From Symbiodinium sp. CCMP2592 (Eukaryota; Sar; Dinophyceae; Suessiales; Symbiodiniaceae), in assembly GCA_905221615.1 (NCBI GenBank), contig CAJNDT010003113.1:601501-665500 (forward strand): a stretch of DNA of 64,000 nucleotides. The letters run 5' to 3'. Shown piece after piece: positions 1,805 to 62,870 of this stretch (positions within the stretch are counted from its first letter, which is position 1; each line of letters opens with the position of its first letter). A program made the translations under genes and the position numbers. The notes beneath the pieces are model-generated. The model saw nothing but the letters and a program-made list of their open reading frames with translations. It was not told the DNA's origin and made no database searches.

Positions 1805-1850
1805 TGCGCTGTTCTTGGATCGAGCCCCGGGAGAAAACTCTTCCGGTTAT

Positions 1851-1974
1851 CTTCACCTGTGTGAAGTGTGCCGGAGAGACTCCGGCTACCTTCACCTGAG
1901 TGAAGCACACCGGGTATTCCGGTTGCCTCCACCTGTGTAGAGTGTACCGAACGGGTACCTCCACAAGTGTGAAG
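1851..1974 (-). repeat. Array of four short stem-loops in the element leader
   Basis: Four 16-nt hairpins lie at 1851-1866, 1890-1905, 1927-1942 and 1959-1974, every 32-39 bases, between primer site and gag start. In sense orientation they read CTTCAC/GTGAAG with loop ACAG, the same stem with loop TCAG, CTCTAC/GTGGAG with loop ACAG, and CTTCAC/GTGGAG with loop ACTT. The two imperfect stems contain G.U pairs only in the sense strand. GC-rich inverted repeats (for example GCCGGAG...CTCCGGC near 1870-1886) alternate with them. Confidence 0.8.
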
Positions 1975-1991
1975 CTTCCCGTTTCCCGGGA

Positions 1992-32600: not shown

Positions 32601-33053
32601 GGTTTTGACTTCGAAGCCACGAAATCTAAGGCATCACATCCGGGGTCTTGACCAAGGAGCCACAAAACTTCAGGTATCCCAACCGGGATCTTGACCACGA
32701 AGCCACCAAACTTGAGGTATCCCAACGCAATCTTGGCCACAAAACGCCACAAAACTTGCGGTATCCTAACCGCGATCTTGACCATGGAGCCACGAGGTAT
32801 CGCGTCTTATCAACGAAATCTCAAAACTTGAAGTATCCTATAGCCGGGATCTTGATCACGAAGACTCAAAACATGAGGTATCCCAACCGGGATCTTGACC
32901 ACGAAGCCACCAAACTTGAAGTAACACAACTGGGATCTTGACCACGAAGCCACAAACTTGAGATATCCCATTCGATATCTTGATCGCGAAGCCTCAAAAC
33001 TTGAGATATCCCATTCGATATCTTGATCACGAAGCCTCAAAACTTGAGGTCCT

Positions 33054-46708: not shown

Positions 46709-46824
46709 TGAAAGTTTAAACCCTTATACCAGTATACTTCTTATAATCACGGCACGAGCTTCAGATTCTTTTCCAGTCTAAGCTCCACTGCTGGGCCGTG
46801 CTTGAGCCTTAGTTTGACCTGCGG
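46709..46824 (-). repeat. 5' LTR of element C (outer limit uncertain)
   Basis: The inner border, TTTCA next to the primer site, is clear. The outer border is set only by the start of the element B LTR at 46825, because no second copy was found to compare. Confidence 0.45.
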
Positions 46825-46999
46825 TGAAACACTGGATTCCTGTATGTTTCTGTATGTAGGGGAAAATTGAACTATCTGTTACTGTTGCTCAAGGTTCTAG
46901 TGCAGTGGACTACAGCTGTGCGCCTGTAGCAAAAGAGACACCTGAGTGCCTGTGTTCCTGTACGCCTAGCGAAGGGATACACGTCCAGGTTACATCTCA
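46825..46999 (+). repeat. 5' LTR of element B, 175 bp
   Basis: It runs TGAAACACTGG to ACATCTCA. The 3' two-thirds match the other two family LTRs closely; roughly the first 70 bases are diverged. Confidence 0.7.
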
Positions 47000-47002
47000 A
47001 CG

Positions 47003-47014
47003 TGGTAGCGGAGC
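47003..47014 (+). other. tRNA primer binding site of element B
   Basis: TGGTAGCGGAGC lies three bases after the LTR end, like a complement of an initiator tRNA-Met 3' terminus. Confidence 0.7.
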
Positions 47015-47031
47015 TCCCGGGAAAAGGGAAG

Positions 47032-47116
47032 CTTCACACTTGTGGAAGTACTCGTTCGGTACTCTCTACACAGGTGGAGGCAACCGGAATACCCGGTGTG
47101 CTTCACGCAAGTGAAG
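47032..47116 (+). repeat. Leader hairpins of element B
   Basis: Stem-loops at 47064-47079 (CTCTAC/GTGGAG, loop ACAG, one G.U) and 47101-47116 (CTTCAC/GTGAAG, loop GCAA) are clear. A third near 47032-47047 is imperfect. They correspond to the four at 1851-1974; one further copy here, near 47130, has decayed. Confidence 0.7.
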
Positions 47117-47191
47117 GTGACCGGAGTCTCTCCAGTGAAGTGAAGATAACCGGAAGAGGTTTCTCCCGGGGCTCGATCCAAGAATAGCGCC

Positions 47192-48680
47192 ATGGCTAGC
47201 CACTCTGCGACTGTCTTTGAGCATGATGGAGGAGATGATGACTACCTCCTTCACGGCAATGAGTCTTTCGCGACGAATCATCGTCATCTCAATGAACTAC
47301 ACCGTCTTTCAGCTTTCCAGCGGGTGACCACCAAAGTACCTCCATCTTATGATGGTAGGAAGTGGTTGGTTTGCCTACGAAGATGCGATCGATGACTGGT
47401 GTGACATTACTGAGCTAGACAATGAAAAGCGTGGACCAGCTTTGAGAAATCGGCTAGAAGGTGAAGCAGCAATCCACAAAAGGCTTCTCGACCGAGATCG
47501 CCTGAAGGACCCCAACAACGGAGTGAAGTACTTCAAGAGCTTCCTGCGGCCGCTCTTCGTGAAGGGAGCAGCAAATGTTTTCCTCTACCGCTTCCAGCAG
47601 TTCATGAACATGCACCGCGCGAATGGAGACATGCTTCGTTGGATTACCAGGTTTCAACTCTCTGTTCAAAGGATGCAAGAAGCGTGGAATGACACCTATC
47701 TGCCGATGGTGGACCCGAACAATGCAGAGGTCAGAGCCTTCATAGCAGGACTTCCACCAGAAGAACAAGAAGGACTCACGCCAGAGCAGGCAATGGAGAG
47801 AGCCAACGAACGGCTCAGAGATCAGCATGCTCGGACCATTCCGATCACGGCCAACCTCGTTGCCTTGATCTTTGTCTCCCTGTCCGACCTGACACAGGAT
47901 CAGCGGCAGGTGTTGACATCATTGATGGCACATCGGAACCGAGTCTTGGCTGACTACAACGTGACCGAGCTGCGTGAGGTCTACCTTGAGATCTTCTGCA
48001 CGACCAAGGCTACCGTCGACAATCCTCTCCTCGCTCCTTCCGGCCACGGTGGCCGCAAGACGTTCCTTGTGATCGACGAAGGATACTTGGACAATCATGA
48101 AGGCTACTGGGTCGAGGACGAGGAGGATGGCACAGAAGGTTTCCTTGAAGCGGATGAGGACGCCTTCTGGGTCTACGACGATGAGAACTACTCATGGTTC
48201 CAGCGGCGCTTCCAAGGCCGCAAGATGAACCGCGGATTCAAGGGCCACCGAGAAGGAAAAGGAAAAGGTGGCAAGGGATCCAAGGGAAGGCGCTTCTTCA
48301 AAAAAAGAAAGGCAGGTCCAACCTTGCCGAAAAATCAGAAGCATGGCAGGCAGAAGGACAATGGCAAGATTACTAGTGGAGCGATCAGTCCTGGGATAAC
48401 TGGCCCTGGTATGAGTCTGAGGAGTCCTATGCAGCCAAAGGAAAAGGAACGAAAGGAAAGAAGGGCAAAGGAAAGAGCAAGTTTGGCAAAGATGGAAAGG
48501 ATGGAAAGTCCGGAAAGGACGGACAAGCCCAGCTTGCTAATGCTGCCCCGAGCGGCCCGAGCGGCACCACAGCCGCCACAACCTTCTTCGTTGAACGCTT
48601 CAACTCGCCGAACCTTTCTTTCATGGCCACCGAAGAGAAGATCAATGAGATCGAAGAAGCCTTCATCTCTCAGCCCTTGA
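47192..48680 (+). pseudogene. Element B Gag, frameshifted
   Basis: The start MASHSATVFEHDGG (47192) is followed by a one-base insertion near 47360 relative to the intact copy at 1804-1. The main open piece is 47349-48680 (capsid-like helices, WFAYEDAIDDWCDI to LMAHRNRVLADYN, then a basic G/K tract). A one-base loss in an A-run near 48310 shifts the frame, and the ancestral frame then meets a TAG near 48374. Role as for Gag in general: particle assembly and RNA packaging. Confidence 0.8.
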
Positions 48681-49039
48681 CGCCAACCGCGATGGTGTTG
48701 GACTTGGGATGCACGCGAGCAATGGCTTCGAGAGTGGCCGCACAGGACCTCATGGAGTTCTGTGACAAGAATCAGAACTGTGGCATATGGTACACCATTG
48801 CTGAGACCACCTCTCAGTTCACCTTTGCCAATTCCGAGTCGACCAAGTGCAACCAGAAGTTGGTCATTTGCATGTACGACCGGGATTATGCAGTTCAATC
48901 CACAGAGTTCGACATTGTGGGGCAGGGGCATGTTCCTATTCTCATGTCTTTGCCGCAGATGCGCAATCTTCGTTTCCAGTTCGAACTCCACCCGGAAAAG
49001 GCCTTGCTTAGCAGCCCTGTACTGGGAATAAGGATGTGA
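48623..49039 (+). CDS. Element B protease-like region
   Basis: The frame reads MATEEKINEIEEAFISQ, then MVLDLGCTRAMASRV, then a beta-rich stretch to VPILMSLPQMRNLRF. D-L-G-C-T replaces the common D-S/T-G motif, as in the copy at the left window edge, so it is a family feature rather than a private mutation. The frame ends at 49039; sequence downstream continues the polyprotein in another phase. Confidence 0.65.
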   Translation: MATEEKINEIEEAFISQPLTPTAMVLDLGCTRAMASRVAAQDLMEFCDKNQNCGIWYTIAETTSQFTFANSESTKCNQKLVICMYDRDYAVQSTEFDIVGQGHVPILMSLPQMRNLRFQFELHPEKALLSSPVLGIRM

Positions 49040-49149
49040 AGCTGAAGGTTGCACCTAGCTCACACCTGGTTCAGCAAGCACAAGAAGTCGAGCTTCCTCA
49101 CCTACTTCTCCCACTACGAGTACGGTTTCCATCAGAAGAGCGTGGCATG

Positions 49150-49165
49150 CTCTTCTCAGGAAGAG
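49150..49165 (+). repeat. Stem-loop CTCTTC/GAAGAG, loop TCAG
   Basis: Perfect 6-bp stem in coding sequence; translated as SSQEE. Confidence 0.75.
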
Positions 49166-49622
49166 GTACCCGAAAATCTCGTGTTGGCGACGGATGATGA
49201 ACGGGTGATCAATGAAGCCGACATGGAGATGATCCGCATCCACAAGAAGATGAGGAAGGTTAAGTACGAACCCAAGGCGGGCTTCGCGCCTATTCCGTTG
49301 GAGTATCTGGACAACAAGCGCAAGACGATCATGAAGTTCTCCAAGGGAAAGAGCGTTACTCAAGAAGATGACTGGCGTTCTTCTGAGCTTTCTTCATCAA
49401 GGATTACTGATTCTTGGAACGGTAGGACTATCTTCAAGATTTTGCCTGGAGGTATCGAGAGTAGAACCTCGGTACCAGCTAAGTCCAAGGATCCAACCCG
49501 TGCTAAGGTAGGATCCCCAGAGGACATGATTAGCAAAGGCAAGCCTGAAGACAGCTCGAAGAACACAGGAGCATCCGGAAGCTTTCCTCACCGGTAGCGA
49601 GAAGGATTCGAGCCAAGGGAAG

Positions 49623-49638
49623 CTTTCCTCAGGGAAAG
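49623..49638 (+). repeat. Stem-loop CTTTCC/GGAAAG, loop TCAG
   Basis: Perfect 6-bp stem. A half-copy (GCTTTCCTCA) lies 42 bases upstream at 49581. Confidence 0.75.
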
Positions 49639-49657
49639 GCACCCAAGGAACCGGCTC

Positions 49658-49688
49658 CTCCTCCTCCTCCTCCTCCTCCTCCTCTTGC
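49658..49688. repeat. CTC microsatellite
   Basis: About ten CTC units, polyproline in the likely reading frame. Confidence 0.8.
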
Positions 49689-49809
49689 TCCTGAAGATGA
49701 TCCGGATCTTCAAGAGTACGAACCTTCCGAACCGGGGGAATGCAGATTTGCTTCCTCCGAGAGCCCCAGAGGCTCAGTCACTAGAAAACCTAGGAGGATC
49801 GCGCTTCCA

Positions 49810-51266
49810 TTGCCAGGCCACGAGGTCTCAAGGGCTTTTCCACAGTATCAGCGCATGTTGGAAAAGTTGAACAATGATGTTGAGCTTTACAAGTTGCATG
49901 TGAAGCATTACCACATGAGTTCAGCTCAGTTTCGACGAAGGACCAGCATGCTTGGGCTGCCAGGAGAGATCTATGACAAGTACGACCGCATTGTCAAAGG
50001 CTGTCGTGTTTGTAGCACCTCCGTGCCCACGCCTCCGCGAGCCAGAATCGCAGGGTTGAGAGCACCATCCTTCGGTGATCTCATTTTTGTTGATCACGAA
50101 GAGATTAAGTTTGGTACTAAAGCCTACCTGGCTTTGGTCATCATTGATGGTGCTTCGAATCTCCTGTGGGCTACGGCTCTCACAAGCCTGGAAGCGCCCG
50201 AGACTCTGGGAGCTTTTCGACAATGGACAGAGGAGAACAACTGCGTTCCTAAGGGAATCGTAGGTGATCAAGCATTTTTCACGCCACAGTTCATGTCCTA
50301 TTATAAGTTCATGGCATTACTCCGTATCCGTGTGGACCGCGGACTCCTTGACCTAATCGAGCTGAGACCGCAGTGCGTCTTTTCAAGCGCACATGGGCCG
50401 TTATGGCCAAGGCCTTGGCTGATGAAGGTTATGCAGAGAAGGTGACTGTTCGTCAGGCAGTCAAGAAGGTGGCATGGGCAAGGAATTGCCAACTCACCGT
50501 CTCAGGCTATTCTCCTTTGGAGATAGCCACAGGAAGACGGCCACCAGACTTGTTTGACGTTGAGAACAGTTCTCCCGAACAGCTCTCTGCTGATCCTGCT
50601 GAGGAGGATCGAACTACTCTGGAACTCCAGAGGATTGCCATGCGAGCTCATCAAGAAGCCAGACAATCACTTGATCTTCGGAAGGACCTTGCACGCAGAG
50701 TCATGCCGTCTGATGGTCCGTACTCGAAGGGTGATCGCGTGTTTGTTTGGCACAAGGATGAGTCTAAGAAGAAGTCTGAAAGAACCTGGGTCAGAGGTAT
50801 AGTTGTGTCACAAGAAGGAGCCATGGTTTTGGTTGAAGTTCATCGTGCCGTTCTTCGGGTGAATCAGTCGAAGGTCAGGCGTGATGGAGATCCTTGGCAT
50901 GATGTGGCTATTCCTCTGAAGACTGATGAGGTTCCGAGATGCTCTTCTCAGGAAGAGGCACTCGACCGCATCGGCGACGATATTCTTGATCGTGCCGGTT
51001 CTGGGTTCTGTTATGAGCATGAGATCTGTTACCACACTCTCACTTCAGGCAAGAGCGATTTTGTCGAGATCACACCTCGCCTCACTGGGCTTACTGTGTG
51101 CACTGTCCATTCTGGACTTGATGCGAGTGAACCTGTTTTGTTTGGTGAATGGAATGCCAAGTCCATTCAATCTTCGATTGAGTCTGCTTGGCAAGTGATC
51201 TTGAATTCTGCGCCTAATCACATTTTCATTCATCCTGTCATTCCTGACGAGTGGCTTTTGTGCTGA
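49810..51266 (+). pseudogene. Element B integrase, with stop and frameshifts
   Basis: The zinc-binding end is recognisable (H-x-x-x-H near LHVKHYH, then CRVCSTS). The core reads FGDLIFVDHEEIKF, GIVGDQAFF and, after a phase change near 50330, NRAETAVRLFKR with the catalytic Glu. A TGA lies just before it. The piece 50373-51266 continues into an SH3-like tail (KGDRVFVWHKDE, WVRGIVVSQEGAMVLVEV) and beyond. The end at 51266 is another shift; the next phase reads GFCAEVCRWQDDKGDG. The enzyme would insert cDNA into the chromosome if intact. Confidence 0.7.
50942..50957 (+). repeat. Stem-loop CTCTTC/GAAGAG, loop TCAG
   Basis: Perfect; in frame as CSSQEEA within the integrase C-terminal extension. 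Confidence 0.75.
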
Positions 51267-51315
51267 GGTCTGCCGTTGGCAAGATGACAAGGGTGATGGA
51301 TACTTTGTTACCATC

Positions 51316-52167
51316 ATGTATCCTTCTCATTGTGGTTTTTGGCTCTCTCAGAGCAGTCGCGCACTGAAGTGGAGAAGAGGACTTTCATTCCTCACTTTCA
51401 AGAACCGCGATGAGCATCAGCATGGTGAGATTTCTTTTCTCACCAGTCTGCCTGAGGGATCATTTGCTCTCTTGGAGTCGTTGGAAGAAGGCTATGACTC
51501 TACGACCACACTTGATCCTAGGTTTGCTGTCTTGCTGTCACAGTGTCTTTTGGGTGATGAACGATCAGATCTCAGACAGTCTTACTTGTTCGAGGATATC
51601 TTTGAGGATTTCGATGATGGAACACTGTGTGCGTTGTGTTTGCGATCAGACAGAATTTCAGAGGCCTTGCCGGTTCTTCCGTTAGAAGCAGAGTACTCGT
51701 TACTCTCCAACAATGACAAAGGGAAGCTTCCGCCACCTCTGAAGTTTGTCGCTCCACAGCGTTTTGTTACATCGTCTTTAGTCCAGACTCTGTCATATGT
51801 TGACAGTCTCCTTCCGGGTACTGAGCTGGAAGTTCACACTACCACATCTTCTGAGGCGGTCGCCTTGCGACCCATGATTAAGAATGTGCGAGTGTTGACT
51901 CTCCCTTATCTGGAATTCGAGTACTGTAACGTCGACAGGGGGACTCAAGGGAAGACACTTCCTTTGGTTCATCGTCATCCGGATGCTGTTGTGATTTTGT
52001 GGCAAAAGGGTGACTTGGATCATGTGTTTTTCGTGACGATGGCACAGTTGCTTCCTTGCCTTAAGGATATGCAATCAGCTAATTGGTCCATGATAGTGTT
52101 CTGGAGTGACTCACAGCACAACAATTCCAGACGCGGGCCTGATGTTGGTTTGGACTTCACAAACTAG
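51316..52167 (+). CDS. Element B region between integrase and RT, unknown fold
   Basis: 283 residues of mixed helix and strand (CLLGDERSDLRQSYLFEDIFEDF...), with no motif I recognise. It continues the polyprotein across the shift near 51250. A stop at 52165 separates it from the proline-rich segment. Confidence 0.45.
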   Translation: MYPSHCGFWLSQSSRALKWRRGLSFLTFKNRDEHQHGEISFLTSLPEGSFALLESLEEGYDSTTTLDPRFAVLLSQCLLGDERSDLRQSYLFEDIFEDFDDGTLCALCLRSDRISEALPVLPLEAEYSLLSNNDKGKLPPPLKFVAPQRFVTSSLVQTLSYVDSLLPGTELEVHTTTSSEAVALRPMIKNVRVLTLPYLEFEYCNVDRGTQGKTLPLVHRHPDAVVILWQKGDLDHVFFVTMAQLLPCLKDMQSANWSMIVFWSDSQHNNSRRGPDVGLDFTN

Positions 52168-52215
52168 CCAGCACCGGCTCCGGTTGCACCGCAACCACTG
52201 GCCAATGATGATGGT

Positions 52216-53109
52216 GTGGACTACCCTGGGTACGATGATCCGCACGGCGATATGCCTGTGGACGATGAGGATATGCCACCGCGGCATCCTGAACAGGATC
52301 TGGACGATGATCCTGTTGAGTTGCATGTCGGTGGTGACCCTCCGTCACAGCCTCCTGGAGGCGGTACTCATGTACCGGTACCAGGGGGAGATGACGACTC
52401 AGACCTGGATTATGATCCGGACAACGGTGGAGGCCATCTACCAGGAGGCGGTCCTCAGGGACCGGGACCTGGCTATGGCCCTTCGCCGGAAGAGCCTCCT
52501 CTTCCGATGGAATTTCACGAGGAGTCGCCTCCTCCTGGAGGTCCTCCCGACTCTCCTGGGGCTCCGCTTCAATTTGCGAACCCGGATCAGGTTCTCAGTC
52601 CACCGATGCCTTGGCCGGCACCGCCTTCACCTATTGTTCCTGTTCCGATTCCGCCGCGTCCTCACTTTCCGGTGCCGCAAAGTCTGCGACCGCCGTCACC
52701 TCGCAATGTGTCTCAGACACGGGCTCGTGGTGCACATCCTGACGATGTGTCAAAGGCTAAGTCGCGCACTGTTGTGGGGCCTCCGGTTGTGTTGTTGCCT
52801 GGGCAGTCTGCAGGGAAGAAGGATCCCGATCTTTCGGGTGACTTTCCGGGTTCTCATGAACCTGCTTCCTCTTCTTCTGGTCCGGCGCCTGTTCCTGGTT
52901 TGCCGGTGACTGAGGGGGAATTTCCTATCCAGCAAACCCCACTCCCGGAACCCACCCCGGAACCGCCGGTGCCGGAAGCTGGTGAGGACACTGACTCTGA
53001 TGCGACGGTTGACTATCGTGATGAGAGTTTGCTTGCCTTGGCTGTTGGTGACGATGACGTTTTGATTCGCCTTCCGTCGGGTTCCGTCTTTTGTTCCGTT
53101 GGATGGTGA
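52216..53109 (+). CDS. Element B acidic/proline-rich linker
   Basis: 297 residues, low complexity: Asp/Glu with Pro/Gly first, then long Pro-rich stretches. It leads into RT, which begins in an overlapping phase near 53099. At least three stem-loops lie within it. Confidence 0.5.
   Translation: MDYPGYDDPHGDMPVDDEDMPPRHPEQDLDDDPVELHVGGDPPSQPPGGGTHVPVPGGDDDSDLDYDPDNGGGHLPGGGPQGPGPGYGPSPEEPPLPMEFHEESPPPGGPPDSPGAPLQFANPDQVLSPPMPWPAPPSPIVPVPIPPRPHFPVPQSLRPPSPRNVSQTRARGAHPDDVSKAKSRTVVGPPVVLLPGQSAGKKDPDLSGDFPGSHEPASSSSGPAPVPGLPVTEGEFPIQQTPLPEPTPEPPVPEAGEDTDSDATVDYRDESLLALAVGDDDVLIRLPSGSVFCSVGW
52362..52377 (+). repeat. Stem-loop CGGTAC/GTACCG, loop TCAT
   Basis: Perfect 6-bp stem in the proline-rich region. 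Confidence 0.65.
52449..52464 (+). repeat. Stem-loop CGGTCC/GGACCG, loop TCAG
   Basis: Perfect 6-bp stem with the family loop. Confidence 0.7.
52487..52506 (+). repeat. Stem-loop CGGAAGAG/CTCTTCCG, loop CCTC
   Basis: Perfect 8-bp stem with a variant loop, so membership in the family is less certain. Confidence 0.55.
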
Positions 53110-53761
53110 TGGTTTTGCGTCTTGGCTGACCAAGCAGGACAAAATCAAGGCAGGTACCCTGATGCCGGAAATGCAGCGCAAGTACGCCGCCGAAATTCGG
53201 AAGGCTAAGCTTGAGGAGTTCAAGAGTTACTTGGGCAATGATGCTATTCGGCTCACGGACCGCCGCAAGCTTAAAAGCGATGTCAGTTTTCTTACCGGAC
53301 GCTGGGTCCTTACGGTGAAGGTTGACAAAAACGGTTACTTTTCCAAGTTCAAGGCCCGTTGGGTTTGTCGTGGCTTTCAGGACAAGTTTGCCTGGGACCA
53401 ACAAACGGACAGCCCTACGGCTACTCGGTATGGTTTCCGTTTGGTTGCGCAGCGCGCTGCCAATCGCTATTGGTATGTTTTTCATTTGGGTCTTAAGACC
53501 GCTTTCCTTCAGGGGAACACTACAATCTGTCATCTCGCATGGTTGTGGTTCAGTTGCCTCCTGACATCGGTTTGCCTACCTGGATGGTCGGCCTTTGTCT
53601 CAGACCGATGGCCTGAACGATGCACCGAGAAGATGGTGGAATCGTTTGGACAAGTTCCTCCGGTCTGTTGGCATGGAACCGACCAGAGCTGACCGATGCA
53701 CTTATGTCGCATACGACGGCATCGAAGGCAAGAAGGGGAAAAGCCACCTTGCGGCAGGAAG

Positions 53762-53777
53762 CTTCTCTCAGGAGGAG
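53762..53777 (+). repeat. Stem-loop CTTCTC/GAGGAG, loop TCAG
   Basis: One T.G pair in the sense strand; read as SFSQEEE. Confidence 0.7.
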
Positions 53778-53794
53778 GAACATGAAGCAGGAAA

Positions 53795-53810
53795 CACCTC
53801 TCTGGAGGTG
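53795..53810 (+). repeat. Stem-loop CACCTC/GAGGTG, loop TCTG
   Basis: Perfect; 17 bases after the previous hairpin. Confidence 0.65.
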
Positions 53811-55177
53811 AAACCTGCCTACTTCAAGGAGGTTGCCCTTCATGCCATGACATGCTACGCATACGATGAAGGAAACCGTTCTTCCCCCGACCGTGCGGAG
53901 GAAAGATCCTATCTTTCATGTCCCAATACCGCTCAGTGCTTTAACTTTAACACCGATACCAAGAAGATGGTTGACTATGCTTGGAGACCTGTGACTGATG
54001 ATAAACTTCTTGGGTTCTTGGGCAGTGTCGCTTGTAAAAAGAGAGGTTGGTTCCCTTACCAGAACGGGCATGCTCTCGTTTCTCATAGGGCCAGGGCTCT
54101 TCGTACTCCTGCACCTGTCTATCAGGTCAAGGACTACCCTTATCGAGTTTCCATGATCCTTCGTAAAGGGACATGGTGGATCGTCGAAAGGGCCCATGAC
54201 CTGAGGTTAGACAAGGGTGACAAGACCCGCTTCCTGGAAGAAGAAGCTGAGGTTCTCGTCTCCTTGTTCCTTCCTGAGAAGGCTTCATACAAGGTCGAGA
54301 GCTTATCTGAGCTCTCTCCCGAGTTGGTTGATCAGCTTCTTGAACACTTTGTTGACCCTGTGCATGGAAGTCCCAGCAAAGGCCGCAAGACAGTTGGAGT
54401 GATGAGTCTTCATGTTGATGATCTCATCATAAGTGGAACCCCTGAGTTCCTCACCTGGTTCCTCATGAAGATCAAGGAACACTTCACTGTCGGCCATGAG
54501 GACAAGAACGACCTTACGTTCTTTGGACAGCGTGTTCGTTGGGTCTTTGACGCACAAGGCAAGAAGAAGTACATATCGAGCGATCAAAAGCTGTGCGTTT
54601 CTGAGCTTGAGGAGATCGTCATACCTAAGCATCTTAAGGATGCTGATGCGTGTGACAAAGCTCTCCACACCTCTTACCGCTCTTTGCTAGGTAGCATCAA
54701 CTGGCTTCAGTCGAGGACGCAATTTCAGGCATGCTATCAGTTCTCTCGCCTGGCTTCGGCATCTGCTGCTCCGACCGTCGGTCACTGCAAGGAGTTGAAC
54801 AAGTTGCGTCGACAGATACGCAGTGAAGAGGTGGAGTTGCGGGTGTGGCCAGTGAAGGGATCACCGAGGATTCTTGGAATTCCTGACGCAGCTTTTCGTA
54901 ACAACAGCGACAAGTCCTCACAGAGGGCGATGACTATTTTCATCGCTGATGAAAGGGTCAAGAATCGAAGGGACACCCGAGGCTCTTTGGTCTTCTTCGA
55001 ATCAACCAAAATCAAGAGAACGACCCTTAGTACCACTGTCGCTGAGCTTTATGCTTTCATGAAGTGTTTTGGTACCTGTCAGATCCTTCGTGGTTTGTGG
55101 AAGGATATTAGTGGTCTTGACGCTGAGATCCACATGCGCACCGACGCTAGCAATCTCGTGTCTACTGCTTCTACTAC

Positions 55178-55909
55178 CCGTTTTGCGTGTATTTGACGCC
55201 ATGCTTTTCCTGCTTTTGGGACATCTGCGACTTGGTTTCAGGGCCTAGATATACTGGTATTTACAGCATTTCCGTGGTTATTCGTTTTTATCTCTTTAAA
55301 GAAGGACCATGCAGACCCGAGCGCCAGAACGACCTAAAATACAGTCATCATCATCATCATACTCATCAACATCATCTTACTCATCAACATCATCATTGAC
55401 CTGGGTGGGGGGGGGTGGGGGGGGGGGCTAATCGCGAGCATGTTTGACATCATCATCATAACAGTAACATTCAAAACCGTCAAATTCATTGTCGCCATCA
55501 ACATCATCATCACGGTGATAAACAATATCATCATACTCATCAACATCATCATACTCAGGGCCTAGATATACTGGTATTTACAGCATTTCCGTGGTTATTC
55601 GTTTTTATCTCTTTAAAGAAGGACCATGCAGACCCGAGCGCCAGAACGACCTAAAATACAGTCATCATCATCATCATACTCATCAACATCATCTTACTCA
55701 TCAACATCATCATTGACCTGGGGGTGGGGGGGGGGCTAATCGCGAGCATGTTTGACATCATCATGGCATGACTTTCACTTGAGCCGATAAAACCCACGAT
55801 CCAGGGCGCTCGGCTCACAACGACATGCGCATGCGGAAATGACGTCCCTGCCGTGTGTTTCGGACATGCATGCACCAAAAAACACAGCGTCAAATACACG
55901 CAAAGCGCG
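55178..55909. mobile_element. 732-bp MITE in RNase H, Mutator-like (9-bp target duplication)
   Basis: Inverted ends share TTTGCGTGTATTTGACGC (55182-55199) with its complement (55887-55904). The 9-bp TTCTACTAC occurs on both sides (55169-55177, 55910-55918). Removing the insert and one duplication joins the RNase H frame exactly (...STASTT / HSPEQQET...). Inside is a 165-bp direct duplication (about 55238-55402 and 55557-55721), CAT/ATC microsatellites and G-runs; no transposase is seen. Nine-base duplications are typical of Mutator-like elements. Confidence 0.85.
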
Positions 55910-55918
55910 TTCTACTAC

Positions 55919-56306
55919 TCACTCACCCGAGCAACAGGAAACCATTCACATGATTCAAATGCTGAGGAAGGAAGCTTGTTCAGGGGCGATTGCTGATCTT
56001 TCTCACGTTCGAACCGAACATTGTCTTTCTGACTGCCTCACGAAACGAAGCGCTAATCCTAGAAACCTCCTGAACTCTGTTCAAACTGGGTGGTTAAAGG
56101 AAATCGATTCACATCCTCCTTTTCGTTCTATGATCGAGCACAAAGCCTTCTTGAACGCCTGGCTCCGTAAGGAGTACGCGGTTTTGAGCGCAGTGCAACA
56201 CGTCATGTTCATGCAGGAGCGTTTGTGGGTCATGTCGGCTTCATGTGTGAGCTGTCAGAGCAATTCAATGCATGTGCTTCATGAAGAGTTTTTGGTCTCT
56301 TTTTAA
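55919..56306 (+). pseudogene. Element B RNase H, C-terminal part
   Basis: It reads HSPEQQETIHMIQMLRKEA, then ADLSHVRTEHCLSDCLTKR, the closing motif of copia RNase H. About 60 further residues follow to the stop TAA at 56304. That stop lies inside the 17-bp repeat found again just before the 3' LTR. Confidence 0.75.
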
Positions 56307-56317
56307 ATTTGTGCCTG
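56301..56317 (+). repeat. 17-bp direct repeat, left copy
   Basis: TTTTAAATTTGTGCCTG, containing the RNase H stop codon. An exact copy is at 61772-61788, two bases before the 3' LTR. The pair bounds the accessory module. Confidence 0.8.
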
Positions 56318-56421
56318 CATTGCTCAAATCAGCTGGTTCAAACTTAAGTGAGAAAGTAGCCCACAACTTCCACTTTTGTTACCAGCATGGCTGCGGCAGG
56401 ACCCTCTATGGATGCTGGACG

Positions 56422-56437
56422 CTCCTCTCAGGAGGAG
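56422..56437 (+). repeat. Stem-loop CTCCTC/GAGGAG, loop TCAG
   Basis: Perfect; read as SSQEEA in the N-terminus of the phosphotransferase-like ORF. Confidence 0.75.
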
Positions 56438-57687
56438 GCACCAGTGCAGGTCTTCTGGACACCGAACAATGGATGCAACTTCAAGGTTGACGTTCGTACT
56501 GGTATTCCTGACCTTTCCATGTATCTGAAGAGCGCGTCCTGGGTGCCACGTCGTGTACTCCGATCAGTTGGAGATGGCGGCGTGGTTACCTACCCTATAC
56601 AAGGGGTTCTCGAGCCTTTCCTCGTGATGCACCGGCGGCCTCCCTCAAGATCATTCGGGAACCTGTTCCACGTTTCTTCGGGCAACAGGACACCACGGCG
56701 TACTTCCCTCAGGGGGCGATGGCCGCGGCGGACATTCTGGAAGGACAGTTGGCGTTTTTGTCGCATGTCCGGGACTATGAGGCGAGCCACCCTGGAACCC
56801 ATGTACTGCAGCGGCATCTCGTATGGAAGTACGAGTTCCTGTGCTCTTTCCTGGGCTGCCTGGACTCTTCGGAGTTGGGCGTGCTGGACAGGGAGATCTT
56901 CGAGGTCTCCAGGCTGAGGCACGACCATGGCAGCTGGGCCGTAAAGTCGCCCAAGCAGCTCTCGAAGCTGACTCGGCACGACGAAAGGGTCATACCGGGG
57001 AAGTACATGGAGATCACCCTGGAGACGATGATGAAGCACCCTCTCAGGCCTTTTGAGTGGTCGCCGAAGAAGTTCTTCTGCTTCTTGATGGCGAACTCGA
57101 AGGGCCGCTTCAACATCTGGGTGGCCCCGACGGCTCTCCAGTATGGGCGCTTCTGAGACTTCGACTTCTACATCGGGGTCTCCGCCGCCCAGGGTCAATC
57201 TCGGGTTCCAGAGCAGGTGTCGGATGTCGCCCTCGGGGAGAAGCTCACCAAAGAGCGATGCCACCAGCTCGGCATGATCTTTCTTGCCTCGGATAACTCC
57301 AACTACGAGAGTATCCGGGAAAAGGGCTTGCTGGCTGCTGGAGGCAAAGAAGGCGGCGTGGCAGCGGCACAGGAGAGCCATCCACTTCGTTTACGCGGGT
57401 GGAGAGGTTTCTCCAGGGCCTGGGACCGTCATTAAGTACGGCTCCTACGTCTTCTACGCCAAGCTCGACTTTGAGAGCTTCCTGAACCACGGCCACGATC
57501 TGTATCTTACAGACAACGGCGTGGTGCTCTCATACCAGGACGTGGCGCCAATGTGTTTGTCGTACCACTATCGTCCGCCCCACGAGCAGGATCCGGGTGG
57601 CCTTCGCCACGAAAGGAAGCAGCAAAGCGCAGGGGCAGGCCCCTCCCACGAAGAAGGAACCTCGGCGTCTGCTTCCGCTACCGGAGG

Positions 57688-57703
57688 CTCTCCTCATGGA
57701 GGG
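57688..57703 (+). repeat. Stem-loop CTCTCC/GGAGGG, loop TCAT
   Basis: One T.G pair in the sense strand; in the linker (SPHGG). Confidence 0.6.
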
Positions 57704-57798
57704 GGACCGGGAAGCAGTACGGATCCAAGGCCTTCGAAGCCAGCTCCTAAGAAAAGGCCAAAGACATCTCAGGATGCCGGCCAAGCGTCTCAGGGAAG

Positions 57799-57814
57799 CT
57801 CTCCTCAGGGAGAG
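57799..57814 (+). repeat. Stem-loop CTCTCC/GGAGAG, loop TCAG
   Basis: Perfect; read as SSPQGE. Confidence 0.75.
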
Positions 57815-58502
57815 GTACCCACTTTGGACGCAGCAGCTCTCCAGAAGCTTATTCGTGATAATGAGCTAGAGGAAGAGCAGGAGCGGCAAGCCACAGCCTC
57901 CGAAGGGGACACCAGGTATGCGTACCAGTCTGGGGACACCGTCCACGGCAAGATTGATGTGCATAAGTCCCAGCAGCAAGAGGAGCTCAACGAGGTTCTC
58001 CGTAAGGCAAGGACCAATCCTTGGCATCTTTTTGCCCATGGTCTCTTGCACATGGTGAACGCTTCTGGCCAGCGGATGCTCAGCACCTATGGCGATGCCC
58101 TCGTTCAGGTCACCCCCTGGCATGCTTTGACTCCGTCTATGAGGGAATCCTTGGGTGGTGAGTATACTTGGGCATCCTGGCTTCAGCATCCTTTGTCGGG
58201 GTATTCCTTGCACTTTTTCTTGAAAGCCTTTGAGATGGGAAAGTTGCATGGGAACTACCTCGTCGAGCTGGACAAGAAACCGAAGGTTTACTTCAACGGT
58301 TACACTTCACCATGGATGAACATGAAGCGTCACCCAGGAGGCCTCGCATCTATGTTGAAGCAAGTCACCATTGCGGCGGAGAACGAGTTCCGACCTTCTG
58401 TCGGGAACATTGGTTTCGATCGCCCTCGTGACGATGATCCTCGCTCAAGGATGCCCAAGACAGAGGATCCTGATTACTCTCGCAAGCTCGAGGCGCACAA
58501 TG

Positions 58503-58518
58503 CTTTCCTCAGGGAAAG
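58503..58518 (+). repeat. Stem-loop CTTTCC/GGAAAG, loop TCAG
   Basis: Perfect; read as FLRERD, a different phase from most copies, a few bases before a frameshift. Confidence 0.7.
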
Positions 58519-58530
58519 GGATGTGTACTC

Positions 58531-59325
58531 ATGCTCGTCCGCATCATCAATGAGGCCTATGGTGTGGACTTCTTCTCCTACATCCAGCGCCATGCACATG
58601 ATGTGGAGGTTCGCCGAAAGTACTTGGTGCGAACTCCTGAGGGTTGCGGTCATCATGACTCTACTCTCAAGCAACCCTTCAATGGTCGCTATGTGCTGGC
58701 AGCTTTGGGTAAGGTTTTCTCTACAGCTGACAACAAGGACTTTAAGTCAGCCTTCGCCCGCAAGGCGAGAGCAGATTTGTTGGCCTATGAGAACCTGCGC
58801 GAGAAGAAGGAGGCAGAGTTGAATGAACTCTACACGCGACCCTATGAAGACCTTTTGGTTGAAGAGTTCATCGAACGGCTTCCTGGTCCACAGGTCGAAG
58901 AGATTGAGGAGCCTGCCGCGGCAACTCAGATGGACACCTCCGAGCCGGCTTCAGGATCAACCGATTTGCCACAAGGCAAGAAAAACGATCCAGTGAAGAC
59001 CGAGCCGACCGATGTGCCAATGGAGACTGATGCTCCAGAAAGCTCTCCTCAGGGAGAGGCATCTGGGGCGAATGTCGAGCCAATGGAGACCGAAGCTCCG
59101 GAAGGCTCTCCTCAGGGAGAGGGATCTGGGGTCAAGGCCGAACCTGATGAGCACATGGGTCAAGACGGAGGAAAGTCCGAGGACAGTGAGATGGCTGAGG
59201 AAAGCTCACCACAGGGTGAGGAATCCATGCCTGATATTTCTCCAGAAAAGGATGATGAAAGTGAACTTCACGATCAAGGCATCTGGGGGAAATGCAAGAC
59301 TGTTCCGGATCCTGAGTACTATTAG
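58531..59325 (+). CDS. Element B accessory ORF, helical then acidic repeats
   Basis: This probably continues the preceding ORF across a shift near 58525. The first 110 residues are helical (MLVRIINEAYGVDFFSYIQ...). The remainder is acidic with repeated PMET-x-APE-SSPQGE units, each encoded partly by a stem-loop. Stop at 59323; the following in-phase text (AKDAEEKNENAFEEMG) suggests that the stop is a late mutation. Confidence 0.5.
   Translation: MLVRIINEAYGVDFFSYIQRHAHDVEVRRKYLVRTPEGCGHHDSTLKQPFNGRYVLAALGKVFSTADNKDFKSAFARKARADLLAYENLREKKEAELNELYTRPYEDLLVEEFIERLPGPQVEEIEEPAAATQMDTSEPASGSTDLPQGKKNDPVKTEPTDVPMETDAPESSPQGEASGANVEPMETEAPEGSPQGEGSGVKAEPDEHMGQDGGKSEDSEMAEESSPQGEESMPDISPEKDDESELHDQGIWGKCKTVPDPEYY
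59043..59058 (+). repeat. Stem-loop CTCTCC/GGAGAG, loop TCAG
   Basis: Perfect; read as SSPQGE in the acidic repeats. Confidence 0.75.
59106..59121 (+). repeat. Stem-loop CTCTCC/GGAGAG, loop TCAG
   Basis: Perfect; read as GSPQGE, 63 bases after the previous copy. Confidence 0.75.
59205..59220 (+). repeat. Stem-loop CTCACC/GGTGAG, loop ACAG
   Basis: Perfect; still read as SSPQGE although two stem pairs and the loop differ from the neighbouring copies. Confidence 0.75.
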
Positions 59326-59370
59326 GCCGCGAAGGACGCAGAGGAGAAGAACGAGAACGCGTTTGAAGAG

Positions 59371-60032
59371 ATGGGCAAGGCCAAAGAGAAGATTGAGCTC
59401 GCCGACACCGACGAGTATAAACATTTTCTCGCTGAGCTCGTCGACATCGAACGGGAAAGCCCCATGCGGTTGCTTTCCAAGCAGGCGCGTGGATATGGCT
59501 ATTCCAGCTTGTATCATACAGGCCTGCGTGACCCTACGTGGGAGCCCGTTCTCGCATTCAAGGTGCAGCATATGAGCTGGAAGGTCAATGTTCCAAGGGA
59601 CAGAAATACTCTCTTAGCGCAGGAGACCTCTTCGCTCAACTCAACAAGATGTCTCCGATCTATGAGCGGCGTCCCGACAGGAACGACGTCGTCTTTCGTT
59701 CTGGAGACGTCCGCAGCACCTTGGATGACAAGCTGATGGAGAAGGCCTCTGACATCCGTGAAGCAGCTCTGGAGGTTTTGGAAGCACTTCTTGATAAAGT
59801 GAAGTCCCTTGACGCGAGCAGCAATCCGGCAACTCGAGAAGAACTCTTGAACGCAATGCTTCATTACTTCTTGAGCACCGGAGTCGATGAAGAGGAGATC
59901 GGGGACTTCTCTCTTGAGAGGATGCCGAATCCTTACATTCATCGTTTTGGTCTAGCGGAGGACGCCAAGGTCCCCCTTTTTTTACAAGTAAGACCAAGTT
60001 CGCCGCGCTCATTGTCAATCTCGGCAACATGA
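59371..60032 (+). pseudogene. Element B accessory coding segment, frameshifted
   Basis: Two overlapping open pieces (59371-59736 and 59538-60032) read as one helical protein: KEKIELADTDEYKHFLAELVDIERE, then LFAQLNKMSPIYERRPDRNDVVF and KASDIREAALEVLEALLDKV. No motif is recognised. It links the acidic ORF to the nuclease-like ORF. Confidence 0.45.
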
Positions 60033-61067
60033 GCAGGGGAAGGAAGCGCACGGCTCCTACCTCTGTTGCCAGTCACATTGACTGGGACGACTCCTCGCCA
60101 TCCAAAGGAGCCTTGATCAAGTCGATCGCTCAGAGCAAATCACACCTCTTCATGTTGTGTGAGGCCTCTGAGATCAACGACTCCGAGAAAGCGTTCCTCA
60201 CAGCTCGCGGGTGGCAATTTCTGCAGAACGAGTCCAAGGACTTGCTCGTCGGGAGTCGTACCAACAATGTCGGGTCTTCGATCACCCGTTTGGCAGGCTC
60301 AACTCTCACTGGGCTTGCTCACAATTCTCTCCCGATCACCTATATGATCGTGGAGATTGTGTACGGGATGACAGTACCGGCGGGGACTCAAAGAAATCGT
60401 GGCGACTTCCCAGATGATGCACTGACCAGGGTCCTGGAGCGCGCCGGCTCCGACCGCATAAGGGTCTGTAGCTTCCACCTCCGTAACGACGCGGCAGCCG
60501 ACAAGGTGGCGTTGGCTCACGAGGCGTTGGGCAACATGTTCGTTGACTGCCTGCACTACCAAGTTGACCTCATCGGCGGCGATGCCAACATGGCCCTGTA
60601 TCGCGCCACAGGCAGAAAGCAGGAGTCAATGGATATTCGTGGCGGCATGTACCAAAGCCTTCTCGACTACTTCTTGGAGGCCTGGTCGGAAAGCCCGAAG
60701 TGCCCACACCTCTGCTCGCCTCGCGCGAGACACGTGTCAGCAAACGCCATGTGGCTTCTGAAGCAGTACGAGGACACGCTTGGTGTGCAGTACCGGAACG
60801 CAGAAGTTGAACAAGGCGCGTGGTTCTGGTTCTTCTGGTCCCGCTGCAGCCGCACCTCAGGGAGCGAGCTCTTCTCAGGAAGAGGCAGCTTCTGGTGCCA
60901 AAGCTTCTGGCTCTCAACGTCCTCCAGAACCCGCACAACCTCCCGGTGGCAAAGAAGGCGGCAAAGGAGGCAAGTCCTCAAAAGGGAAAGGCAAAGAATC
61001 CGACAAGGGCAAGTCCAAGGGCAAATCCAAGGACAAGTCCAAGGGCAAGAACAAGGGGAAGAACTGA
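60029..61067 (+). pseudogene. Endonuclease/exonuclease/phosphatase-like ORF with basic tail, one frameshift
   Basis: From MSRGRKRTAPTS the text shows the EEP-superfamily layout: HLFMLCEASEI (metal-binding Glu strand), DLLVGSRTN, RIRVCSFHLRND, and DLIGGDANMALYR (near 60575-60600, like the G-D-x-N motif). A final strand is less clear. Near 60800 the likely frame changes to that of 60780-61067, giving a G/S/A linker with one hairpin (SSSQEEA) and a lysine-rich tail (KGKSKGKSKDKSKG). Members cut DNA, RNA or phosphoesters; LINE endonucleases belong here, but no RT follows. Substrate unknown. Confidence 0.5.
60869..60884 (+). repeat. Stem-loop CTCTTC/GAAGAG, loop TCAG
   Basis: Perfect; read as SSQEE in the likely tail frame. 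Confidence 0.75.
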
Positions 61068-61328
61068 CTAGGTTCCGATTCGGATGTGGAAATGGACAAT
61101 GGTCTCGACGAAGTTCCTTTGGAACAAAATGAAGATGTTGCTCCTGATCCACAACCTTCGTTGCCTAGATCCCCAGCAGATCCTCGTGGTTACGATCCAG
61201 TTCGCCATGCTCCGGTGATGCCGATTCACAGAGTTGACATCTACCGCTGGTCTGGTGAACATCGTGACACGACCTGGGATCGAGACATAGAGTTCGTCGA
61301 CTGAACTGGCTGAGTGTTTCACGGAATG

Positions 61329-61344
61329 CTTCTTTCATAAGAAG
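61329..61344 (+). repeat. Stem-loop CTTCTT/AAGAAG, loop TCAT
   Basis: Perfect; non-coding 3' region. Confidence 0.7.
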
Positions 61345-61382
61345 GTATCCACTCTGAACATTCGTCATTTCATAGGGAGATG

Positions 61383-61398
61383 CTTTTCTCAGGAAAAG
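61383..61398 (+). repeat. Stem-loop CTTTTC/GAAAAG, loop TCAG
   Basis: Perfect; flanked by GATG and GTACTTCC like several others. Confidence 0.75.
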
Positions 61399-61432
61399 GT
61401 ACTTCCTAAAGAACTCGTCTTTCAAGAAGATA

Positions 61433-61448
61433 CTTATCTCAGGATAAG
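61433..61448 (+). repeat. Stem-loop CTTATC/GATAAG, loop TCAG
   Basis: Perfect; 50 bases after the previous copy, followed by ATACTTCC. Confidence 0.75.
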
Positions 61449-61771
61449 ATACTTCCAATGCCCTTATAAAATTTGCCTTGCCGCAAGATGTCATGCTGGC
61501 ATCAAGTGGAGCTAAGCTCTACACTTTTACGTTGCAGTATGCTTTCCATCTGGAGAGGGAACTGAACACAAGTGGGCAACTTTCAAGCAAAAGTTTTCAG
61601 TGAAGATCCGTTTGCGTTTCGTGCGTGTTCTGCTCTTTTCATGAAGCTGTCTCCAGGCTAGAGAATGTATAGTTTCTCAAGTCGCAGATGTAGCTCAATA
61701 CTCCGCTAATTCGACCGAGAGCAATAACAGGCTAGTAGAATGCCGACTCCACGGCCATGCAGTTCTACGTG

Positions 61772-61788
61772 TTTTAAATTTGTGCCTG
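61772..61788 (+). repeat. 17-bp direct repeat, right copy
   Basis: TTTTAAATTTGTGCCTG, identical to 56301-56317. Confidence 0.8.
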
Positions 61789-61790
61789 GT

Positions 61791-61974
61791 TGAAACACTG
61801 AATGTTACACATCCAGGTGCCTGTCTGTTTCACGTATCACTTGCATGTATCCATGCCTGTTGCTCAAGGTTCTAGTGCAGTGGGCTACAGCTGTGCGCCT
61901 GTAGCAAAAGAGACACCTGAGTGCCTGTGTTCCTGTACGCCTAGCGAGGGGATACACGTCCAGGTTACATCTCA
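61791..61974 (+). repeat. 3' LTR of element B, 184 bp
   Basis: TGAAACACTGAATG to ACATCTCA, the same length as the LTR at 2007-2190. It is closer to that LTR in its first 70 bases than to the element's own 5' LTR. Confidence 0.8.
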
Positions 61975-62870
61975 GGGGGAGGGGGGAGGGGGGAGCGGAA
62001 CGGTTCGGAACGGTTCGGGACCGAACCTTAGGGTGCAGAGCAGGGCAGGGGTTGGCCCCCATTGACACATTGGCTTGACCACTAAGCTTGGGAATGCTGA
62101 TGATGGTAGCTCCCGAACCGTTCCGAACCGTTCCGACCGATCCTCCTAAGGGCCGGACCACTAAGCTTGGGAATGCTTATGATGGCAGCTCCCGAACCGT
62201 TCCGAACCGTTCCTATTGGCCTGACCACTAAGCTTGGGAATGCTTGTGATGGCAGCTCCCGAACCGTTCCGAACCGTTCCGAACCGTTCTTGAGGTTGGG
62301 CCCTATTGCCCTGACCGGAATGTGGGAATGCTTATGATGGCAGCTCCCGAACCGTTCCGAACCGTTCTTGAGGTTGGGCCCTATGCCCTGACCGGAATGC
62401 TTGCGGTGGCAGCTCCCGAACCGTTCCGAACCGTTCCGAACCGTTCCGAACCGTTCCTGAGGTTGGCCCCTGTTGACATATTGGCTTGACCACTAAGCTT
62501 GGGAATGCTTATGATGGCAGCTCCTGAACCGTTCCGAACCGTTCCATCTAGGCCGGCAAAGATCCAACCTCAGGAACGGTTCGGAACGGTTCGGGAGCTG
62601 CCATCATAAGCATTCCCAAGCTTAGTGGTCAGGCAATAGGGGCCAACTTCAGGATCTCGGAACGGTTCGGAATGGTTCGGGACCTGCCAGCAGAAGCATT
62701 CCCAAGCTTAGTGGTCAGGCTAATAGGGCCAACCTCAGCAACGGTTCGGAACGGTTCGGAACGGTTCGGGAGCTGCCAGGACAAGCAAATAGGGTCCAAC
62801 TTCAGGAACATTTCGGAACGGTTCGGGAACCAACTGTGAGCCCTTCTCCCCTGGCTTGGTCACCACCACT
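61975..62870. repeat. GAACCGTTCC repeat array with internal inversion
   Basis: Runs of the 10-bp unit GAACCGTTCC alternate with a spacer containing CCACTAAGCTTGGGAATGCT and GATGGCAGCTCC. After about 62570 the array reads in reverse complement. From 62870 to about 63070 single degenerate copies remain. Confidence 0.85.
62487..62631. repeat. Inverted repeat with 59-bp arms
   Basis: Arms 62487-62545 and 62573-62631 face each other across 27 bases at the point where the array turns round. They would fold into a long stem. Confidence 0.8.

Follow-up and report, generated by a model that had tools for sequence, protein, structure and literature searches.

The question raised by this locus is why one retrotransposon should carry many small hairpins of a single design whose stems change from site to site while remaining complementary, and whether, as a first-pass annotation proposed, pairing is under selection or both arms are remade together during copying. 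The window analysed is a stretch of 64,000 nt from the genome of Symbiodinium, a coral-symbiont alga, and the carrier of the hairpins, here termed element B, is a ~15-kb Ty1/copia-type LTR retrotransposon.

Short LTRs (~118-127 bp) bound the element, the 5' LTR at 46873..46999 (+) and the 3' LTR at 61848..61974 (+), and together they form a 127-nt direct repeat of 95% identity; 15 of the 21 other stretches contain LTR matches at 92.9-100%. The primer-binding-site-like sequence TGGTAGCGGAGC, read directly at 47003..47014 (+), presumably resembles the primer-binding site of plant copia elements. A reverse transcriptase fragment (RVT_2, PF07727; E 1.4e-8, 35.1 bits, cut-off 31.6) occupies 53066..53692 (+). 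Upstream of it, searches for an integrase in 49549-50445 and 50352-51266 were empty in Pfam up to E 10, the frames of this copy being broken up. An ORF2 fragment at 57278..58822 (+) has a frame with no Pfam match at E 0.001, and Gag, integrase and ORF2 domains gave no meaningful Pfam score in the window frames of the element. The gag frame contains a lysine/arginine/glycine-rich stretch, and Pfam returned no zinc knuckle in it. Relatives of element B were absent from the viral and GTDB contigs searched, and PDB sequence searches gave no match. A partial copy of the same family at the left edge of the window has four leader hairpins (1842..1983, -), with four cores found by our descriptor and three listed by our model.

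In 46873-62000 there are 22 perfect hairpins with a 6-bp stem and a 4-nt loop, against a mean of 4.84 (maximum 10) in 50 dinucleotide shuffles. The loop is TCAG in 12 of the 22 (shuffled mean 0.06, maximum 1) and CTGA in none. Hairpins with a 6-bp stem and either of these loops are absent across 2201-46872 (44,672 nt). Tetraloop hairpins of any kind exceed the shuffled number in that segment as well (27 versus 12.3 in 15 shuffles), many of them in the satellite or in AT palindromes, and hence the generic count by itself is not decisive. In contrast, the count of two-stem structures, described below, is decisive, with 14 in element B against 0.12 in shuffled sequence (300 shuffles, maximum 2). 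The three two-stem matches in 2201-46872 all belong to one AT-palindrome family at 13.9-14.2 kb. A chance origin of the hairpins is rejected by the TCAG-hairpin and two-stem counts against shuffles. Outside the family, what remains of the window and two further loci that were sampled hold isolated weak matches only. The first-pass annotation's claim that element B carries many such hairpins is borne out, and, as it suspected, they are rare in the DNA sampled beyond the family.

Each design hairpin proves to be the tip of a larger two-stem structure of ~32 nt. Its 6-bp inner stem is capped by a UCAG-type tetraloop and joined, through a 3x3 internal loop, to an outer stem of 3-5 bp whose sequence differs at nearly every site. 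The flanking positions of the internal loop are purine self-pairs, either A·A or G·G, in 607 of the 626 cells of a copy-by-copy comparison of sites. At the 12 TCAG sites, which were picked without use of the outer stem, outer-stem pairing is 77% versus 41% with swapped partners, none of 2,000 swaps being as good. The outer stem and internal loop had been overlooked at first, as had the clusters in the 5' leader and 3' UTR and the near-constant coding phase. The hairpins at 50617, 52489 (the 'CCTC' variant), 52519, 57400 and 58008, five of the 22 perfect ones, are not of the design: their outer stems pair at chance level (36% versus 26%; 361 of 2,000 swaps as good). Seven further sites belong to the design despite a mismatch or G·U pair (47064, 53762, 56558, 56703, 57688, 59906 and 61542). 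The design set is larger than originally noted: element B has 24 hairpins, of which the model finds 22 and the descriptor the remaining two, and a decayed copy at 47023. In all, 122 distinct 34-mers of the hairpin were collected. No Rfam family reached its gathering score, and a known Rfam family as their identity is rejected, the four matches in 46800-62100 (E 0.12-0.92) all being sub-threshold. The literature searched yielded no published description of such a hairpin array.

The sites, all on the + strand and, unless stated, recognized both by the model and in other copies, fall into three regions. In the leader, hairpin 1 (47023..47056) is placed by alignment and decayed, its counterpart in the partial copy (1950-1983, -) being paired. 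Hairpin 2 (47055..47088; also by descriptor) has an ACAG loop and one G·U, and hairpin 3 (47092..47125) has a GCAA loop here and TCAG in five of eight aligned rows. Besides the decayed one, another leader hairpin of the window copy has been lost through a 10-nt deletion. Among the coding sites, the first has CTCTTC/GAAGAG or CTGTTC/GAACAG as inner stem across copies (49141..49174), followed by CTTTCC/GGAAAG (49614..49647), CTCTTC/GAAGAG with outer CGAG/CTCG (50933..50966), CGGTAC/GTACCG with outer CCTGG/CCAGG (52353..52386) and CGGTCC/GGACCG with outer CCAGG/CCTGG (52440..52473). At 53753..53786 CTTCTC/GAGGAG is a G·U intermediate, other copies having CTCCTC/GAGGAG or CTTCTC/GAGAAG; it is overlapped by CACCTC/GAGGTG with outer GCAGG/CCTGC (53786..53819; descriptor and copies), which is itself unlisted by the model, unlike this neighbour. 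Next come CTCCTC/GAGGAG with a T-A or C-G outer-stem pair across copies (56413..56446), CTCCGA/TTGGAG in another coding phase (56549..56582; descriptor, not model) and the weak or decayed CTTCCC/GGGGCG (56694..56727). CTCTCC/GGAGGG (57679..57712) contains a G·U, with CCCTCC/GGAGGG or CTCTCC/GGAGAG in other copies, and the site at 57790..57823 shows three alternative stems across copies (CTCTCC, CTTCTC and CTTCCC). A hairpin in another coding phase lies within a conserved peptide (58494..58527). Two more sit on a 63-nt tandem unit (59034..59067, with outer CCAGA/TCTGG, CCAGG/CCTGG or CCGGA/TCCGG across copies, and 59097..59130). The remainder are CTCACC/GGTGAG with loop ACAG (59196..59229), the weakly scoring CTTCTC/GAGAGG with a G·G or A·A internal-loop pair across copies (59897..59930) and CTCTTC/GAAGAG (60860..60893). 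The 3' UTR holds CTTCTT/AAGAAG (61320..61353), CTTTTC/GAAAAG (61374..61407), CTTATC/GATAAG with internal loop ATA/ATA (61424..61457) and CTTTCC/GGAGAG with one G·U (61533..61566; also by descriptor). Of the 29 sites in the reference copy, 21 are coding, and the 5' leader and the 3' UTR hold four each; overall, the retrotransposon carries about 25-29 copies of the structure.

Across copies, 28 of the 29 reference sites could be compared. At orthologous sites the two arms change together, in some cases via G·U intermediates. Paired changes account for 10 of 78 variable pairs versus 42 of 1,259 in controls, which were same-shaped placements nearby (Fisher p 5e-4); a first version gave 9 of 72 versus 29 of 1,105, with one of the nine coming from a replaced segment. 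At least one copy is unpaired for 50 of the 78 variable pairs, versus 1,082 of the 1,259 controls. Covariation is 0.748 versus 0.208 shuffled in 24 sequences (21 from element B and three from the partial copy), some of which were chosen with the outer stem in view, and 0.635 versus 0.189 in the 61 distinct sequences among the best 150 model matches. Of five measures on the latter set, pairs changed on both sides were the sole one without clear excess over its control, the value being reached in 75 of 500 shuffles. The same-site paired substitution in different copies means that selection for pairing, the first of the two options put forward, holds.

The earlier alternative, a copying mechanism that remakes both arms, is unnecessary. 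In this reading, which we consider quite improbable, template switching by reverse transcriptase or during replication would correct quasi-palindromes devoid of function. Deletions of 7-25 nt recur within hairpins, so polymerases may slip there, but such correction leaves unexplained the conserved loop, the conserved non-pairing A·A/G·G columns, the kept G·U pairs, the single orientation and the fixed places. Even less probable is a mobile palindrome that inserts itself, in the manner of Rickettsia palindromic elements, REP or mitochondrial double-hairpin elements. These (RPE, REP and DHE) are small palindromes occurring in many places, and the many similar units scattered in one element do recall them. 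However, the hairpins of element B belong to one family and occupy the same places in the copies compared, with paired substitution and no one-unit gap or lone-hairpin insertion. Furthermore, their outer stems differ, and few matches fall outside clusters among the genome matches listed. Deletions and local tandem duplication alter the number of hairpins, and new copies were observed only within the 63-nt tandem duplication. Mobile insertion is accordingly rejected, the sites being orthologous and free of insertion gaps where compared. The literature lists a further hairpin element, RHE of sponges. A dinoflagellate relative with short inverted repeats is Amoebophrya, in the introns of which these are 8-20 nt long, according to the part of that work consulted (PMC11453091), whereas those of element B lie in retroelement coding sequence and UTRs.

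A single reading phase, which yields S-x-[PS]-Q-[GE]-[EK]-like peptides, is common to 19 of the 21 coding sites and raises the possibility of a protein-level motif (e.g. a polyprotein cleavage site or an SSPQGE linker) that is palindromic by accident. We regard this as very improbable, for eight sites of the reference copy lie in UTRs, two coding sites are in other phases, and the residues vary in base-pairing couples instead of staying conserved. Among the hairpin peptides of Symbiodinium proteins, the couples are P-G in 27, S-E in 14 and mixed in six (n=47), a count in which the first and fifth residues are nearly invariant and windows of one site in related proteins are non-independent. Several paired changes replace amino acids (S/E to C/Q, S/E to F/K), which places the constraint in the nucleic acid; two of the ten, both in outer stems, are silent in the protein. 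The UTR sites and non-synonymous paired changes thus reject a peptide motif as primary cause, while the common phase implies that peptide tolerance or duplication also shaped the hairpins.

The hairpins also have a direction. The family sense strand holds 259 of 260 model matches, as read from the match table. Genome-wide, CTYYYCTCAGGRRRAG has 1,771 matches versus 29 for its reversed pattern and CTCTTCTCAGGAAGAG 612 versus 0; the descriptor count of 294 versus 0 in 26 stretches is partly built in, because the descriptor demands internal-loop purines. Among 100 genome places listed, 91 are pairable and clustered and five are non-pairable and stand alone. Non-complementary arms correspond to the pattern CTCTTCTCAGGRRAAG, and Watson-Crick, G·U and A·C arms to CTCTTCTCAGG plus eight RRR-AG arms. 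Departures from pairing favour G·U over A·C in the inner stem only (13 versus 4; overall 25 versus 15, p 0.15), and strand assignment by this test is only suggestive. When folded at minimum energy (z -8.4), the leader pairs neighbouring hairpins with one another and does not form four separate stem-loops, a point against the docking model set out below.

Selection on a structure of the sense-strand RNA is well supported, and what is selected is very probably an RNA shape read by some partner. On the best reading, the hairpins make up a single cis-acting structure repeated along the genomic RNA of this copia-type retrotransposon. At each of them one RNA-binding protein would dock, recognizing the tetraloop and internal loop, whereas the helices would need only to be helices. 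The likeliest such protein might be the element's own Gag, and we put the chance that Gag or packaging is the reason for the hairpins at about even. The leader sites, positioned after the primer-binding-like site and before gag, could nucleate Gag binding, and the dispersed and 3' sites could let Gag coat or compact the ~15-kb RNA, shutting out host RNAs. This would be the logic of multiple dispersed packaging signals. In the portions of the literature consulted, MS2 and other ssRNA viruses have dispersed stem-loop packaging signals with shared recognition letters and variable surroundings (PMC6281560). The stem-loops of element B are likewise scattered along genomic RNA with recognition letters in common, but the motif is far more uniform and resides in an LTR retrotransposon. 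Ty1 is similarly a copia-superfamily element with leader sequences near the primer-binding site, but its cis-acting sequences lie within the first 580 nt and include a pseudoknot, and the part of the Ty1 account consulted does not describe a dispersed repeated hairpin (PMC8396678).

Rather unlikely, though more plausible than the foregoing rivals, is an RNA-fate element, in which a host protein or a Rev-like protein of the element binds the hairpins so that the RNA is exported from the nucleus, stabilised, localised or shielded from silencing. Binding to the many copies could be cooperative, and the 3' UTR also holds hairpins. In stem IIB of the HIV-1 Rev response element G·G is replaceable by A·A; to our knowledge, that stem lacks a UCAG loop. 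The purine self-pairs resemble this Rev site, where, in the part of the source consulted, non-canonical G-A and G-G pairs in the internal loop widen the major groove (PMC4488727). However, the Rev response element is a single compact multi-stem element of ~350 nt with an asymmetric internal loop, an architecture unmatched by ~28 sites spread over ~14 kb, and no Rev-like ORF came up in the general annotation of the element. Improbable, too, is an RNA-processing role in which hairpins are cut, modified or repaired in connection with Tpt1/KptA, an RNA 2'-phosphotransferase whose domain (PF01885) is carried by some Symbiodinium relatives of ORF2. In two other PF01885 loci that were sampled, the yield was a single weak match (11.5 bits) and a single descriptor match on the opposite strand, which rejects a general property of Tpt1-bearing loci, and the hairpins occupy all three coding phases as well as UTRs.

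Returning to recognition by Gag, we tentatively propose, at somewhat less than even confidence, an 'RNA bar code': a strict module with two symmetric purine self-pairs, repeated ~28 times and kept by compensatory evolution despite amino-acid changes, which an arginine-rich Gag may read as a whole-length encapsidation address. The literature searched held no description of such whole-length genome recognition for retroelements. How LTR retrotransposons, Ty1 included, choose their own RNA is poorly understood, according to the part of the source consulted (PMC8396678). A family that marks its own RNA with ~28 covarying modules offers a ready-made candidate binding site with more than 100 natural variants. 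Exchange between A·A and G·G in the internal loop is covariation of an unusual kind and could define a code for protein-RNA recognition, and here, in a dinoflagellate genome, RNA shape overrides protein sequence.

Element B (46873-61974), a Ty1/copia-type LTR retrotransposon with a reverse transcriptase of the RVT_2 family, is bounded by short direct repeats of 127 nt with 95% identity (46873-46999 and 61848-61974); it is about 15 kb long, yet its LTRs span just ~118-127 bp. The coding region of this copy is broken into many shorter frames, and a second, partial copy of the family lies on the minus strand at 1-2133. The window belongs to an assembly of 1.098 Gb. Four further copies, found via protein and 81-87% identical to B, also have the hairpin motif: the descriptor recovers 10-12 sites per copy in all four, and the covariance model 24 matches in two of them. 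Relatives of ORF2, the 3' ORF of element B (57278-58822), comprise 46 Symbiodinium proteins, including those of S. microadriaticum, S. necroappetens and strains KB8 and CCMP2456. A Tpt1/KptA (RNA 2'-phosphotransferase) domain scores above cut-off in three of the nine database relatives of ORF2 scanned, and such domains have at least 152 matches in the genome. Many of these sit in uniform open frames of ~665 aa, which suggests another repeated Tpt1-bearing family; two other Tpt1 loci sampled were without the hairpin array, the covariance model giving one weak match (11.5 bits). Heat-activated Ty1-copia elements in S. microadriaticum are mentioned in a review (PMC11453091).

The first-pass annotation had described many hairpins of one design in element B. 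Their abundance held up, with 22 perfect hairpins of 6-bp stem and 4-nt loop against 4.84 in shuffled sequence, while the single design did not extend to five of the 22; seven sites bearing wobbles or mismatches raise the design total to 24. The excess is sharpest for TCAG loops (12 versus 0.06 in shuffles), and no hairpins of opposite orientation occur in the element.

Reading of the hairpin flanks revealed an additional outer helix beyond a 3x3 internal loop. When sites were picked by inner stem and TCAG loop alone, with all 12 used, the five positions past the 3x3 gap were 77% Watson-Crick, versus 41% with partners swapped (0 of 2,000 as high); off-diagonal gap sizes all gave 38% or less, the other diagonal sizes overlapping the helix itself. 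Perfect two-stem structures number 14 in element B against 0.12 in 300 shuffles. In an alignment of 24 hairpins, 21 of element B and three of the partial copy, pairing holds in 93.9% of cells, as against 41-56% after sliding, with a covariation score of 0.748 versus 0.208. Knowledge of the outer stem had helped to find some of these sequences, which makes the 12-site test the cleaner one. For the best 150 of 260 model matches (61 distinct) the score is 0.635 versus 0.189, with one of five covariation measures lacking a clear gain over its control. Within 2201-46872, the sole other perfect two-stem matches belong to an AT-rich palindrome family, ATATGATATAGT/ACTATATCATAT, at 13961-14172.

That the stems change as pairs, as first proposed from this single copy, was borne out by aligning copies at orthologous sites. 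The inner stem is CTCTTC/GAAGAG or CTGTTC/GAACAG at 49150; at 53762 it is CTCCTC/GAGGAG, CTTCTC/GAGGAG (with G·U) or CTTCTC/GAGAAG; at 57688, CCCTCC/GGAGGG, CTCTCC/GGAGGG (with G·U) or CTCTCC/GGAGAG; and at 57799, CTCTCC, CTTCTC or CTTCCC, each with its complement. The outer stem is CCAGA/TCTGG, CCAGG/CCTGG or CCGGA/TCCGG at 59043, and CTGG/CCAG or CCGG/CCGG at 56422, where the fourth pair is mismatched in most copies. Of 29 sites tried, 28 retained four or more ungapped rows once gapped rows were left out. At these 28, paired changes affect 10 of 78 variable pairs, one of the ten (L036:3754) being weak; control placements of the same shape, set 60-150 nt from the sites, give 42 of 1,259 (p 5e-4). 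This count omits the row of copy C107b at 56422, since that segment is replaced by other sequence; a first count including it gave 9/72 versus 29/1,105 (p 3e-4; 1e-3 without C107b). Against the paired-change reading, at least one copy is unpaired in 50 of the 78 variable pairs (controls 1,082/1,259). Hairpin number also varies among copies, via a 63-nt tandem unit and deletions of 7-25 nt inside hairpins. The tandem unit, at 59034-59130, bears one hairpin and differs in number among copies; the deletions recur in hairpins (47023-47160 and sites in other copies), as if a polymerase skips them.

In the internal loop of 122 distinct 34-mers, a few chance clusters included, A·A accounts for 102 and G·G for 12 at columns 7/28; at columns 9/26 the figures are 97 for G·G and 18 for A·A, and the middle position is free. 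Over all ungapped rows of the 28 sites, A·A or G·G fills 607 of the 626 cells of these two column pairs. The site at 59906 has one such pair that is either G·G or A·A, depending on the copy. Covariation of this kind, outside Watson-Crick pairing, is what a loop recognised by a protein would be expected to show.

What is conserved is the RNA and not the protein. Several paired changes swap coupled amino acids (S/E to C/Q, F/K or P/G), while two in outer stems, at 56422 and in one pair at 59043, are silent. Residue couples in 47 distinct windows of the 46 database proteins are P-G in 27, S-E in 14 and mixed in six (p 4e-7), windows from one site not being independent. Coding tolerance matters too, since 19 of the 21 coding sites in the reference copy share one phase, the two remaining sites lying in others. 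At 58503 protein relatives have AFLKER or AFNFER, ungapped, and this alignment suggests that the hairpin may have arisen in place.

Genome-wide, CTYYYCTCAGGRRRAG has 1,771 matches versus 29 for the reversed pattern, and CTCTTCTCAGGAAGAG 612 versus none. Among 100 CTYYYCTCAGGRRRAG places listed, 91 are able to pair and have a same-strand neighbour less than 13 kb away; four pair yet are isolated, and five, all isolated, are unable to pair. The covariance model gave its 260 matches in the window and 20 stretches, a non-random sample as these were chosen for core-pattern matches; by reading of the table, 259 lie in the B-family sense strand, the remaining one being at 20794 in the window. This match outside the family (20794-20824) is isolated and scores 19.8 bits. 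Loop letters and purine positions define a single orientation, which the family's sites obey. In the inner stem G·U outnumbers A·C (13 versus 4); over all stems the difference (25 versus 15) is not significant (p 0.15). Folding of the partial copy's leader gives a structure much more stable than those of shuffled sequences (z -8.4), although in the best fold adjacent hairpins pair with one another. Elsewhere in the window, a 43-bp satellite (22331-37562) forms large inverted halves, with arms of up to 1,134 nt that are 98% complementary.

No published description of such a hairpin motif was found in the open-access full-text literature searched. Purine-purine pairs have a precedent in the Rev site (PMC4488727), and in Ty1 cis-acting sequences have been placed inside the first 580 nt (PMC8396678). 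The reference copy has four units in the leader, between a PBS-like site and gag (the window copy keeps two and one decayed), further units spread through the coding region, and four in the 3' UTR, close to the 3' end. The hairpins may be binding sites for one protein, a reading that fits this placement, helices that are free to vary and loop letters that stay fixed. Gag would be the first candidate binder, because its frame (47328-48680) has a lysine/arginine/glycine-rich stretch and matched no zinc-knuckle family. The dispersed packaging signals of single-stranded RNA viruses (PMC6281560) provide the closest working model for the hairpins of this retrotransposon family.
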